Source of the DNA: an uncultured Flammeovirgaceae bacterium
Lineage (GTDB): Bacteria > Bacteroidota > Bacteroidia > Cytophagales > MED-G16
DNA: 64,000 bases
NCBI GenBank assembly: GCA_913052485.1
Contig: CAJXDN010000005.1
Span: forward strand, 1-64,000
Direction: 5' to 3'
Under the pieces are notes generated by a model. That model was given only the letters and a program-made list of their open reading frames with translations, was not told the DNA's origin and made no database searches. This document shows, in pieces, positions 53,937 to 59,075 of this stretch (position 1 is the stretch's first letter; every line of letters begins with the position of its first letter). The translations under genes and the position numbers were made by a program.

Positions 53937-54833
53937 ATGTATAAGGAGAGAAAGAAACAAGCAAAAAAAACATTTGGAAACTTCCCTTTTCTAAGTGTTA
54001 TATTTAGTGTATCACTTTCTCTCCTCCTACTTGGAATATTTAGTCTATTCCTTATATCTTCAATCGAAGTAAGAAAAGTAATTCAAGAAAATACAGAGGT
54101 TAATATCTTTTTAAATAAGAATATATCATCAAATCAAGTTGATAAAATTAAAAGAACTTTATTCACAAAGGACTATATCCTTTCTAAGGATGAATCCACT
54201 CTAAAATATATATCTAGTTCTGATGCGGCAGAGGAATTCAGTAAAGAAATTGGAGAAGATTTTGTTAATTTTTTAGGTAGTAATCCTTTACGAGATCTTA
54301 TAATTTTAAAGATAAGCTCAGACTTTTTTGAAAAAGAAAGTTTAGAAAATATTGAAAGTGATATACTAAAAGTTCCTGGCGTTTATGAAGTTGATTATTC
54401 AAAAGAAATGATTGAAAATATTAACTCTAATGTTAGAAATATTAGTCTTGTATTTGGTGGCATTTTCATTACTTTATTTCTTATTTCTATTATTTTAATT
54501 AATAATACACTCAGAATTGCTTTATTCTCACAAAGATTCCTGATTAGAAGCATGCAACTTGTGGGAGCAACTGCTAACTATATATTGAAGCCATTTATTT
54601 TTAGAGGAATCATCTATGGTTTTATATCGGGTATTTTATCCTCTGCTATATTATATTCTCTTGTCTTACTAATAAATGAGAGGATAAATGAATCAAATAT
54701 GATAATAGGCATTGAAAAATTAAGTATTATATTTATTTCATTGATAGTTACTGGTATGCTTATTGTTATGTTTAGCACATATACTTCTGTGAATAAATAT
54801 TTAAACTCCTCCTTAGACGATTTATATAAATAA
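53937..54833 (+). CDS. ftsX: cell division ABC permease-like protein FtsX
   Basis: FtsX (298 aa from the preferred start) is a four-helix membrane protein that with FtsE controls cell-wall hydrolases in division. The first helix is near residues 15-38, then a periplasmic domain with VPGVYEVDYSKEM, and three helices from about 165. The track ORF begins at 53910, inside hppA; the ATG at 53937 (MYKERKKQAKK) fits the family. ftsE is not here. It starts the ftsX-DUF3098-uppP run known in Bacteroidota. Confidence 0.91.
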   Translation: MYKERKKQAKKTFGNFPFLSVIFSVSLSLLLLGIFSLFLISSIEVRKVIQENTEVNIFLNKNISSNQVDKIKRTLFTKDYILSKDESTLKYISSSDAAEEFSKEIGEDFVNFLGSNPLRDLIILKISSDFFEKESLENIESDILKVPGVYEVDYSKEMIENINSNVRNISLVFGGIFITLFLISIILINNTLRIALFSQRFLIRSMQLVGATANYILKPFIFRGIIYGFISGILSSAILYSLVLLINERINESNMIIGIEKLSIIFISLIVTGMLIVMFSTYTSVNKYLNSSLDDLYK

Positions 54834-55039
54834 TGAAAAATAAAACTAATCTACCTTTTGATAAAAATAATTATAGGCTTATGGTAATAGGCATAATTGT
54901 TATATCTGTTGGATTCTTTATAATGACTCTTGATAGTGAAGATTATGGGTACGGTTTTCTAGGGTTAACACTTGGACCAATAATTGTTCTTTTAGGATTT
55001 ATTTTTCAATTTTTTGCCATTTTTTATAAAAGTAAATAG
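54833..55039 (+). CDS. DUF3098 small membrane protein
   Basis: This 68-aa protein has two helices and matches DUF3098: LPFDKNNYRLMVIGIIVISVGFFIM and a C-terminal PIIVLLGFIFQFFAIFYKSK. Its function is unknown. It overlaps the ftsX stop by one base (TAATG) and ends 3 bases before the uppP fusion. It is a standard neighbour of ftsX in Bacteroidota. Confidence 0.9.
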   Translation: MKNKTNLPFDKNNYRLMVIGIIVISVGFFIMTLDSEDYGYGFLGLTLGPIIVLLGFIFQFFAIFYKSK

Positions 55040-55042
55040 GCT

Positions 55043-56512
55043 ATGGAATGGTACGAAGCTCTAATACTCGGGATAGTTCAAGGATTAACTGAGTTTCTTC
55101 CAATTAGTAGTAGCGGTCATCTTGAAATAGCATCATATCTTTTAAAAACAAACCCCTCGGAAAACTTGGTGTTTACAGTAGTTGTTCACATAGCAACAGC
55201 AATTAGTATAATTTATGTTTTCAGAAAAGATATTAGTGAAATCATAAAAGGTCTCATACAATTTAAAAAAGAGGATATTGATTTCACACTTAAAATATTG
55301 ATATCTAGCATACCAGTAGGAGTGATTGGAGTATTATTTGAGAAAGAGGTTGAATCTTTTTTTACAGGTAATATTGTCTTAGTTGGCTCCATGTTATTGG
55401 TAACCGCTGCATTATTATTTTTTACATACTTCAAAAAGGATGATTCCAAAAAAAATATTTCTTACACTGACGCTATAATTATAGGCTTGGCTCAGGCCCT
55501 AGCTATACTTCCAGGTATATCTAGGTCTGGATCAACAATTTCCATGGCTTTACTATTAAATGTAAATAGGGAGAAAGCGACAAAGTTTTCTTTCCTAATG
55601 GTACTTGTTCCTATTTTTGGAATTTTGATTTTAAAATCTATTAAAGGATTTACAGAAATTTCAGGATCATCTAATTTAATTTTATTTGATTCCTCATATA
55701 TAGTTGGATTTATCTCAGCATTATTCAGTGGAGTATTTGCATGTAAGGTAATGCTTAAAATAGTTAAAGAAAGTAAGTTAATTTATTTTGCGGCCTACTG
55801 TTTATTAGTTGGATCAATTGGGATTTTTTTCGGATCAAAAAACTCAAATGAAACATTTTACATAACTCCCATAAAAGAGTTAGGTGAGCTAAGAGAAATT
55901 TCAAAAAATTCAAATCCTCCGACTCTTGACAGTTTAGACTCCCACAAAAAGTTAATAGATCTTAAAAAACTAGATGATGAGTTTCAATTAGATATAAGAT
56001 ATGCATCTACAAATAATTTTATGAGATCAAAATTCTATGAGAATGAGAGAGCTTTTTTTAATTCAAGTGCAGCAGAAAAATTGATTGATGCCAAAAATGA
56101 GTTAAAAATATTAGGATATGGAATAATAATATATGACGCCTACCGACCTTGGTTTGTAACAAAGATGTTTTGGGAGGGCACTCCTGAGAATCTTAAACAT
56201 TTTGTTGCCAATCCAGAAAATGGATCTTCACACAACAAAGGATGTGCAATTGATATAGGACTTTATGACATCACAACAGGAGAAAGTATTGTTATGATCT
56301 CAGGATATGATGAATTTACAGAAAGAGCATATCCGAACTATGTGGGGGGGTCAAAAAAACAAAGGGATATACGAGATATGCTTATTCGAGTTATGAAAAA
56401 AAATGATTTCACTGTATACGAATACGAGTGGTGGCATTTTAATTATAATAAATGTAATTCAGGAATTATGGATTATTCGTTTTCTGAGTTAGACTCACTC
56501 AATTCCGTCTAG
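55043..56512 (+). CDS. uppP: fusion: undecaprenyl-diphosphatase UppP + VanX/DdpX D-Ala-D-Ala dipeptidase
   Basis: This 489-aa protein carries two full enzymes. Residues 1-265 are UppP (BacA), which recycles undecaprenyl pyrophosphate; its two active motifs GLTEFLPISSSGH (14-26) and PGISRSGST (157-165) are intact, with about eight helices. Residues about 275-485 are an M15D D-Ala-D-Ala dipeptidase: Arg in DAYRPW (R368), zinc ligands in SSHNKGCAIDIGLYD (H397, D404) and EYEWWHF (E462, H465). All five match VanX. The linker KELGELREISKNSNPP looks like the normal start of mature dipeptidases in this group, so the signal peptide is replaced by UppP's last helix (246-264). There is no stop or frameshift between. 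VanH/VanA-type genes are absent, so a wall-recycling role is more likely than glycopeptide resistance. It overlaps the convergent lipoprotein gene by 18 bases. Confidence 0.9.
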   Translation: MEWYEALILGIVQGLTEFLPISSSGHLEIASYLLKTNPSENLVFTVVVHIATAISIIYVFRKDISEIIKGLIQFKKEDIDFTLKILISSIPVGVIGVLFEKEVESFFTGNIVLVGSMLLVTAALLFFTYFKKDDSKKNISYTDAIIIGLAQALAILPGISRSGSTISMALLLNVNREKATKFSFLMVLVPIFGILILKSIKGFTEISGSSNLILFDSSYIVGFISALFSGVFACKVMLKIVKESKLIYFAAYCLLVGSIGIFFGSKNSNETFYITPIKELGELREISKNSNPPTLDSLDSHKKLIDLKKLDDEFQLDIRYASTNNFMRSKFYENERAFFNSSAAEKLIDAKNELKILGYGIIIYDAYRPWFVTKMFWEGTPENLKHFVANPENGSSHNKGCAIDIGLYDITTGESIVMISGYDEFTERAYPNYVGGSKKQRDIRDMLIRVMKKNDFTVYEYEWWHFNYNKCNSGIMDYSFSELDSLNSV

Positions 56513-56920
56513 AATTTTTTGGCCTGAGGACATACTTGTTTTAAATTTTTCTGACACATCATTGATACTTTTCATAAATTCATTAAGTTTAGTGTTAACA
56601 TGCAATAGGTCAATTCCCTCAAGATTGTCATGTGTTTTTCTGTCCATAGGATATTTATCAAAAGAGAACTCATTACTGAAATCTTTCATAAAATTCATCA
56701 TTGACATTCTTGCAAAATCAAGGTTCTTAATAGCCTCATTATCTTCCTCTATTCCATCTATTTCTAATAGACCGTTTTTGATATCTTTAATGGTTTTCAT
56801 TTCAAGCATTAGATCATCATGTTCTTTCATTATATCATCCAAAAGCTCTACATTAGATTGATGAAGACTGTTATTATTAGAACAAGAGATTAATAGAAAT
56901 AATATAAATATATACCTCAT
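56495..56920 (-). CDS. small helical lipoprotein, unknown function
   Basis: This 141-aa predicted lipoprotein has a signal peptide ending in LLISC (Cys 13). The mature part is mostly helical and rich in Met, Asp, Glu and Lys (KEHDDLMLEMKTIKDI, DFARMSMMNFMKDFS), likely a coiled coil. Similar short lipoproteins occur beside barrel-type outer-membrane proteins in Bacteroidota, but I cannot name the family. It starts 2 bases after the upstream OMP gene, so the two are one unit. It converges on and overlaps the uppP-vanX gene by 18 bases. Confidence 0.7.
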   Translation of the reverse strand: MRYIFILFLLISCSNNNSLHQSNVELLDDIMKEHDDLMLEMKTIKDIKNGLLEIDGIEEDNEAIKNLDFARMSMMNFMKDFSNEFSFDKYPMDRKTHDNLEGIDLLHVNTKLNEFMKSINDVSEKFKTSMSSGQKILDGIE

Positions 56921-56922
56921 AA

Positions 56923-58317
56923 TTAATGGTTTTTATGTCCACCTGGACTGTATTGTAAATTTAGGATAAAATGATTATAACTACCAACCTGAAGACCATT
57001 ATAACTCATATGAGATGGGAAGGAATACTCAAAAGAAACCCTTGAATTTCTTAGTAAGCCCTTGTTCATAGAAAGGTTTAACCCAAAAGAAGTATTTAAT
57101 AAAATTTCTCCACTATTATTTGAGTTATTTAATATCATTAGTGTCCTATTCAATCTACTATCCTCACCTGAAATAGACTTTTTATTTATGTAATTTTGTC
57201 TTATACTAAGACTTAAAAAATTCGTAATTTTTACTGCCAACCAGTAATTTATATTCAACTCATTACCGTAAGAGTATCCTACAGAATTGTCAGCTAATCC
57301 AACTAAATATAGTGGCTGTAATCCACCTGAAATTTTTTTAAGTTGGAACAAATACGTGAATCCCATTCTTACAGAGAAATAACCAGAACCTGTCTGCATG
57401 GAATAAGGCATGATGTTAATTTTATTTTTTTTATTAATGTTTCCTGAAGGAATAACTAATCCAACATTCGAGTGGAGCTTCATATTTTTTTTACTGAATA
57501 AACTGTAGAGCGCTTGAAAATCTATATCTCCAAACCCCTGAGAGATTAAATTATTATCTCCATTTAATAGCACATTATAAATTGTTTTTTTGTTAAGGAG
57601 AGAGACCTTAGTGTATAATGTCAAATTTTTATGAACTCCGTACATCATCTCAAGAGAGTGAGTGTTAAATGACTGTGAGATAATATCTCTTTGATAGTAA
57701 GAATATATTTCTTCACTGGTAAACCTATTATTATGATTATATGTTCCCACGCCATTAGATAAATTATACTTATATCCTATCATGATTCCCCCTTTGCTGT
57801 GTACATGATCAGCATCAACTCCTGAGGGTGCATGAGAGTCAGGTCTCGATGAATCCCACATTTCCATATTCATCTTCATGAAATGGTCCTGAACATCAAT
57901 AAATTTATTATTGTCGGATACTAAATAATTCTTAGAAATAATATTTTCAGTTAAAACCTCAATAGATTTTTCTAGATCCTTTATCTTATCCAAAGAAAAC
58001 TCAGCAACAACTTTATCAGAATTATTTTTATCAATTATAAAACCCTTAAAGTTATTAATCATGAGTTCTGAAGTCCTGACATACCTCCAACCAAATGAAA
58101 CCGTAATAAAATACCTTGGGTCTTCAGGTGATTCGTATCCTCTGCTTGCTAGTGATCTAATTATCTGATTTCCAACCCTGTTGTCAGTGGCGTCAAAACC
58201 AGAGCTCATATCTATTTTACTTACGATATTTATTGATATATTTTTAGTGTTACTTATCTTTTGAGATAAAGTCTCATAAGAAATAATAATAATAAAAAAG
58301 AATAAATATTTTTTCAT
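56923..58317 (-). CDS. outer-membrane barrel protein with N-terminal DUF4136-like domain and His-rich motif
   Basis: This 464-aa secreted protein (signal to about residue 19) has two parts. Residues 25-130 resemble DUF4136-like lipoprotein domains (VGNQIIRSLASRGYES, then FKGFIIDKNNSDKVVAEF). From 162 to 177 comes HAPSGVDADHVHSKGG, a variant of the HAPxGVMGDHxHKKGEW motif in barrel proteins often found with copper or metal genes. The rest (about 178-464) is a beta barrel ending in YNHFILNLQYSPGG. It may bind or pass a metal ion, inferred from the motif only. It pairs with the downstream lipoprotein gene. Confidence 0.68.
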   Translation of the reverse strand: MKKYLFFFIIIISYETLSQKISNTKNISINIVSKIDMSSGFDATDNRVGNQIIRSLASRGYESPEDPRYFITVSFGWRYVRTSELMINNFKGFIIDKNNSDKVVAEFSLDKIKDLEKSIEVLTENIISKNYLVSDNNKFIDVQDHFMKMNMEMWDSSRPDSHAPSGVDADHVHSKGGIMIGYKYNLSNGVGTYNHNNRFTSEEIYSYYQRDIISQSFNTHSLEMMYGVHKNLTLYTKVSLLNKKTIYNVLLNGDNNLISQGFGDIDFQALYSLFSKKNMKLHSNVGLVIPSGNINKKNKINIMPYSMQTGSGYFSVRMGFTYLFQLKKISGGLQPLYLVGLADNSVGYSYGNELNINYWLAVKITNFLSLSIRQNYINKKSISGEDSRLNRTLMILNNSNNSGEILLNTSFGLNLSMNKGLLRNSRVSFEYSFPSHMSYNGLQVGSYNHFILNLQYSPGGHKNH

Positions 58318-58376: not shown

Positions 58377-59075
58377 ATGAGCTTTCTTGAAAAATACAAT
58401 AGTGGACAAACATTACTTGTTGATAAGGAGCTTGATTGGACATCTTTCGATGTTGTAAAAAAAATAAAAAATATAATCAAATGTAGGAAAGTAGGTCACG
58501 CAGGTACTCTTGATCCATTAGCTACAGGTTTACTTATTATTTGTACAGGAAAAAACACAAAAAAAATTAATGAAATTCAAAATCAAAATAAAGAGTACTC
58601 AGGCCAATTTACGATAGGAAAGACGACACCATCTCATGATCTAGAGACGGAATTCATAAACGAAAATGATATTTCAGATATCTCTGATAAAGTCATCCTA
58701 AGTGTAAGCGAATCTTTTGTGGGAGAACAGTTTCAAAGACCACCTAAGTTTTCAGCGGTTAAGGTTAGTGGGAGAAGGGCATATGAGTACGCTAGAGATA
58801 ATAAAAAAGTAATCATTAAAGAAAAAAAAATCACAATATTTAGCTTTAATATAACTTCTATCAACTTGCCAAACATAAACTTCAATATAACGTGTACCAA
58901 GGGTACATACATAAGATCAATTGCTCGAGACTTTGGTAAAAAATTAGGATGTGGAGCAGTTCTTACCAAACTTAAAAGAACGAAGATTGGAGACTTTGAT
59001 GTTAAAAATGCAAATAAGATAGATTATTTGGTTAGTAAATTAAAAAGAGAAAAGATTGAAAATAATCAAGGATAA
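58377..59075 (+). CDS. truB: tRNA pseudouridine-55 synthase TruB
   Basis: TruB (232 aa) makes pseudouridine 55 in tRNA. The catalytic Asp is in KVGHAGTLDPLATGLLII, and the RPPKFSAVKVSGRRAYEYAR and CTKGTYIRSIARDFG motifs follow. The C-terminal PUA domain is absent or very short, as in many bacterial forms. It is divergent from the OMP gene with 59 bases between start codons, and ribF overlaps its end by 20 bases. Confidence 0.96.
   Translation: MSFLEKYNSGQTLLVDKELDWTSFDVVKKIKNIIKCRKVGHAGTLDPLATGLLIICTGKNTKKINEIQNQNKEYSGQFTIGKTTPSHDLETEFINENDISDISDKVILSVSESFVGEQFQRPPKFSAVKVSGRRAYEYARDNKKVIIKEKKITIFSFNITSINLPNINFNITCTKGTYIRSIARDFGKKLGCGAVLTKLKRTKIGDFDVKNANKIDYLVSKLKREKIENNQG

Follow-up and report, generated by a model that had tools for sequence, protein, structure and literature searches.

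A single gene in the window, the 64,000-nucleotide stretch of DNA analysed here, encodes UppP (BacA) and a VanX/DdpX-type zinc dipeptidase (M15D) in one chain. Its product is probably (roughly 0.6) one inner-membrane protein in which a working UppP holds the dipeptidase in the periplasm by its last helix, with by-products recycled jointly. In this mechanism, the last helix of UppP, oriented N-in/C-out, would carry the dipeptidase into the periplasm and retain it there. The UppP half would free undecaprenyl phosphate for reuse and the second domain would most likely cleave periplasmic D-Ala-D-Ala, or D-dipeptides like it, such that D-Ala is recovered. Two recyclers of cell-wall by-products would then share one anchor. 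We infer the substrate, the role in D-Ala salvage and any benefit of coupling. No description of a UppP-dipeptidase fusion was found in the literature searched, which lay mostly outside subscription journals.

The fusion gene and its distribution

The frame runs from ATG to TAG through 489 codons without an internal stop (window 55043-56512, plus strand; Table 1), and the Pfam families BacA and Peptidase_M15 both match it, in agreement with the earlier note, which had described one 489-codon frame carrying both enzymes. It is a real fusion of single origin. Of the 15 genomes of the family, distributed over three genera, 13 contain this fusion unbroken and free of stops, with a length of 489-495 codons; the other members are 59-90% identical to the window fusion. 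The family is represented by independent marine MAGs and by single-cell genomes, whose records bear the names Marinoscillum or Flammeovirgaceae, and its genomes are small (1.0-1.6 Mb). An assembly or sequencing artefact in which a stop was missed could be suspected from the origin of the window in one incomplete genome (77.7%), but twelve further genomes, including single-cell genomes, contain the same unbroken frame; a missed stop or assembly error is thereby refuted, and we regard an artefact as practically out of the question. The two family genomes without the fusion (G007 and G008) also lack the neighbouring truB, so the locus is probably just missing from their assemblies, and they were dropped as evidence of fusion loss.

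Table 1. Features of the fusion gene and its locus in the window
Feature	Position	Strand	Remarks
ftsX	53937..54833	+	conserved upstream neighbour; Pfam FtsX_ECD/FtsX, synteny
DUF3098 gene	54833..55039	+	conserved upstream neighbour; Pfam, synteny
UppP::M15D fusion gene	55043..56512	+	489 aa; unbroken in 13/15 family genomes
UppP (BacA) domain	55043..55834	+	residues 1-264; catalytic E17, S23, R161; Pfam PF02673, PDB alignment, invariance
Last UppP transmembrane helix	55778..55831	+	residues 246-263, N-in/C-out; signal-peptide stand-in; alignment, published topology (PMC4641660, PMC5852022), K/R-rich preceding loop
Ser265 (TCA)	55835..55837	+	seven relatives have a lipobox-like Cys here; the clade of the window has Ser
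Linker (FYITPIKELGELREISKNSNPP...)	55856..55942	+	residues 272-300; homologous to pre-M15D segment of exported relatives
M15D (VanX/DdpX-type) dipeptidase domain	55946..56446	+	residues 302-468; R368, H397, D404, E462, H465
141-aa lipoprotein (MRYIFILFLLISCSNNN...)	56495..56920	-	part of block inserted between uppP and truB; no Pfam match
464-aa protein	56923..58317	-	weak Phenol_MetA_deg (outer-membrane channel-like) match; part of inserted block
truB	58377..59075	+	after uppP in outgroups; Pfam, synteny

Among the four closest members dN (0.04-0.07) is far below dS (0.56-0.88) in both halves of the fusion, which are under strong purifying selection. At longer distance the linker diverges faster than both domains. 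Among the matches listed, no second UppP-dipeptidase fusion was found in 395 genomes of the class searched for the dipeptidase and 396 genomes of the phylum searched for UppP. Candidates of unusual length were rejected: in the other long UppP frames of the phylum (G484, G525, G513 and L186-L197) any extra length is an N-terminal open frame and not a C-terminal fusion, and the long M15 frames (L124-L129 and others) contain no UppP.

The two enzyme domains

Residues 6-258 match BacA with 250.6 bits (E=3e-74; Pfam PF02673, gathering cut-off 33.4), and the UppP half scores 192.5 bits against the NCBIfam equivalog TIGR00753, below its cut-off of 217.5. The E. coli UppP (5oon/6cb2) motifs EFLPVSSTGH and PGFSRSG align with the window sequence such that Glu21, Ser27 and Arg174 of the E. 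coli protein correspond to E17, S23 and R161.

The second half matches Peptidase_M15 over residues 302-468 with 97.6 bits (Pfam PF01427, gathering cut-off 27) and is identified as a VanX-type M15D domain with E=1e-27; a profile search of the domain against VanX (1r44) yielded 7e-33. The zinc-binding and catalytic residues of VanX are found as R368, H397, D404, E462 and H465. Mapping on the solved structures showed every catalytic residue mapped to be kept, in agreement with the earlier note, and the catalytic residues of both halves are invariant in ten aligned relatives. A model of the dipeptidase domain (pLDDT 92) has a TM score of 0.78 to VanX (1r44) versus 0.41-0.49 to VanXY, VanY and LdcB. 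Scores against the NCBIfam equivalogs are below the cut-offs for DdpX (NF007557; 110.8 versus 176 bits) and VanX (NF033115; 72 versus 320 bits). The VanX fold evident from profile, model and TM score points to D-Ala-D-Ala or a close D-dipeptide as the likely substrate. D-Ala-D-Ala is made in the family, since genes of the D-Ala-D-Ala ligase type (Ddl) are present.

The M15 domain might instead act as a DD-carboxypeptidase and shorten stem pentapeptides, either on lipid II or on new peptidoglycan, at the site where UppP takes over the released carrier. Neither YkuD LD-transpeptidases nor S13 (PBP4-type) DD-peptidases were found in eight genomes of the family f1 (G000, G002, G005, G009-G013), some of them incomplete; as far as these two families go, the bacteria may therefore lack an enzyme for trimming. 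However, in fold and sequence the domain is nearest to the strict dipeptidase VanX and much less close to VanXY or VanY, which makes trimming an unlikely function. In eight family genomes PF01427 has no match other than the fusion. Of seven family genomes tested, six contain PAP2 phosphatases, and UppP may therefore share the task of carrier phosphatase with other enzymes.

Location of the dipeptidase

Assignment of the membrane side rests on the published UppP topology because the full-length AlphaFold model of the fusion is poor (pLDDT 57.8, ten sequences): the prediction for the full chain proposed in the earlier note was carried out, but the model was too poor to use. In E. coli, a beta-lactamase fused to UppP at Phe273 conferred ampicillin resistance, which locates the C-terminus in the periplasm; Phe273 is the last residue, and the BacA-beta-lactamase protein retained phosphatase activity and complemented a mutant (PMC4641660). 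The UppP crystal structure and the charge pattern agree with a periplasmic C-terminus (PMC5852022). In the window UppP, with the sides of the loops taken from the E. coli work, the cytoplasmic loops are rich in K/R, including the one preceding the last helix, and follow the positive-inside pattern. Because the C-terminus of UppP is published as periplasmic, the dipeptidase is expected in the periplasm, where it should work on the outer side of the inner membrane. Published topology and charge pattern therefore favour the membrane-tied enzyme with a periplasmic dipeptidase that had been proposed.

Locus and origin of the dipeptidase domain

In other families of the order a free uppP is found in the same locus, with the order ftsX-DUF3098-uppP-truB-ribF. 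In the family of the window, uppP is followed, ahead of truB, by the dipeptidase part and two opposite-strand genes; this holds for each of the nine members examined over a longer stretch, although one contig stops before truB. One of the two genes encodes a lipoprotein of 141 aa and the other an outer-membrane-like protein of 464 aa (window 56495-58317, minus strand); they apparently form one insertion together with the dipeptidase.

A role in defence was suggested earlier and was considered here as glycopeptide or bacitracin resistance. Overproduction of UppP confers bacitracin resistance and VanX participates in vancomycin resistance, where it acts in the cytoplasm and requires partner genes. 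The fusion, by contrast, is predicted to place its dipeptidase in the periplasm. It occupies a housekeeping locus conserved throughout the family, and no vanH or vanA partners occur among its neighbours at that locus (ftsX, DUF3098, the lipoprotein, the outer-membrane-like protein, truB and ribF). The suggestion thus found no support, and we consider resistance highly improbable.

In a phylogenetic tree all dipeptidase domains from the fusion group together in a single clade (support 100/100), nested in a group of exported M15D proteins. The remaining members of the group are C-terminal domains of beta-lactamase-fold proteins or lone proteins; the former belong mostly to Planctomycetota and also to marine Bacteroidota (Pfam assignments for three), and the lone Bacteroidota proteins carry lipoprotein-like signal sequences. 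The linker of the fusion, FYITPIKELGELREISKNSNPP, matches the segment that precedes the domain in the exported relatives, FKITPVKPIDLLRRKAEKSNPP, which places the join directly after the last helix of UppP. The donor was an exported M15D lineage of lipoproteins and beta-lactamase-fold fusions; its domain was added to the resident uppP a single time, in the ancestor of the marine family, where the last helix of UppP replaced the signal sequence of the domain. The exported fusions of PF00144 with M15D (L054:8252-10654:+, L066:8294-10654:+, L082 and about 40 other loci), common in Planctomycetota, likewise combine the dipeptidase with an enzyme of cell-wall type.

The join between UppP and the dipeptidase

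Alignment of the join bears out that the dipeptidase has no signal peptide of its own and that the last helix of UppP stands in its place. In seven of the 13 family members the helix is closed by a lipobox-like [GS]C, in the forms IISGC|KDQ, ILYGC|NDQ, ILYGC|NNL and IFFGC|NDK, and in three members FSSC|TKN or IKN. The Cys is kept while its codon varies (TGC or TGT) and the linker changes. At this site Ser (TCA) is found in the window and the three relatives nearest to it, and Phe in one genus; owing to Ser265 the window protein lacks the lipobox Cys of an Lgt/LspA lipoprotein. On the tree the Cys goes back to the shared ancestor of two of the three genera, with a later loss in the clade of the window. 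In the Cys-bearing relatives, lipidation and LspA cutting at the join are plausible, and the gene product may be a polyprotein that LspA cleaves.

These data bear on the possibility that the fusion is a way to two proteins, in which the last helix serves as an internal (lipo)protein signal and the dipeptidase is freed by signal peptidase (LspA where Cys is present) or made separately from Met237. Retention of the Cys in seven of 13 members despite codon and linker change speaks for it, as do the presence of LspA in all eight family genomes tested and a simple lipoprotein-pattern scan, which in L035 and L037 marked the internal Met together with the last helix as the beginning of a lipoprotein. 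Met237 (MLKIVKESKLIYF...) corresponds to the internal ATG at window position 55751, just 5' of the last-helix segment; a start at the equivalent site would yield a lipoprotein-like precursor in the Cys-bearing relatives. Conservation of Met237 proves nothing, however, since free UppP keeps this Met too. In the four genomes of the window's clade the replacement of Cys by Ser rules out LspA cutting at the join, and the window chain should stay whole. As an account of the fusion we consider two separate products rather doubtful. A precedent in kind is fbcH of Bradyrhizobium, the cytochrome b-c1 polyprotein cut by signal peptidase. Internal lipoboxes or LspA-cut polyproteins were not found described in the literature searched.

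A comparable join exists in another class of the phylum, where 13 genomes (L156-L168, family f110; for example L147:2461-3942:+) carry an in-frame fusion of UppP with a prolyl isomerase of the cyclophilin type (PF00160). A lipobox at the end of the last UppP helix is present in 13/13, and related families encode the cyclophilin on its own, immediately downstream of uppP, often with a lipoprotein signal; both features also favour two products. The last helix of UppP crosses the membrane from inside to outside as a signal peptide does and, with the dipeptidase and the unrelated cyclophilin fusions, has replaced a (lipo)protein signal peptide at least twice, independently. We tentatively suggest, at somewhat less than an even chance, that this helix is a recurrent natural docking site and at the same time an internal signal for lipoprotein export: in two unrelated lineages Lgt and LspA would lipidate the polyprotein and cut it into UppP and a lipoprotein (dipeptidase or cyclophilin), and the clade of the window would have lost the site, leaving its enzymes joined.

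Coupling or anchoring

Periplasmic D-Ala salvage beside carrier recycling is the most likely role. The main alternative, which has a substantial though smaller chance of being right, is anchoring without coupling: neighbours were joined in a small genome and UppP serves as anchor and export signal, with the enzymes indifferent to each other. It assumes the same anatomy as the salvage model and differs solely on coupling. The size of the genomes, the faster change of the linker and the independent origin of the cyclophilin join are consistent with it, but the family-wide retention of the fusion with both active sites intact is not required of a neutral join.

With the recycling of carrier and of D-Ala dipeptides tied to one gene and one site in the envelope, a functional link becomes directly testable. 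The join suggests a little-considered route by which the last helix of a multi-span membrane protein acts as a signal peptide for a downstream enzyme, and perhaps even as a lipoprotein signal that can be cleaved. If true, this would alter the annotation of such fusions and the presumed location of their second domains.

Comparison with known systems

With E. coli UppP/BacA (PDB 5oon, 6cb2) the window protein shares the whole domain span, the catalytic Glu, Ser and Arg motifs and, within the order, the conserved locus, but it bears a 225-residue, predicted periplasmic enzyme at its C-terminus. The fold and all zinc and catalytic residues are shared with VanX/DdpX (M15D; PDB 1r44), which are free enzymes, whereas the window domain is anchored behind the last helix of UppP and lacks the longer VanX segment preceding SxHxxG. 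Its nearest domain relatives, with about 50% identity, are the exported M15D proteins (Bacteroidota lipoproteins and PF00144-M15D fusions); they share the linker ITPVKPIxxLR...PP but use their own signal peptide or lipobox, and on the N-terminal side they have either a beta-lactamase-fold domain or no partner. The UppP-cyclophilin proteins are likewise joined where the last UppP helix ends, with a PF00160 isomerase and a lipobox in 13/13 in place of M15D and Ser265. The engineered BacA-BlaM at Phe273 (PMC4641660) likewise carries a periplasmic enzyme on the C-terminus of UppP and kept both activities; it is a laboratory construct, whereas the fusion in the window is natural.
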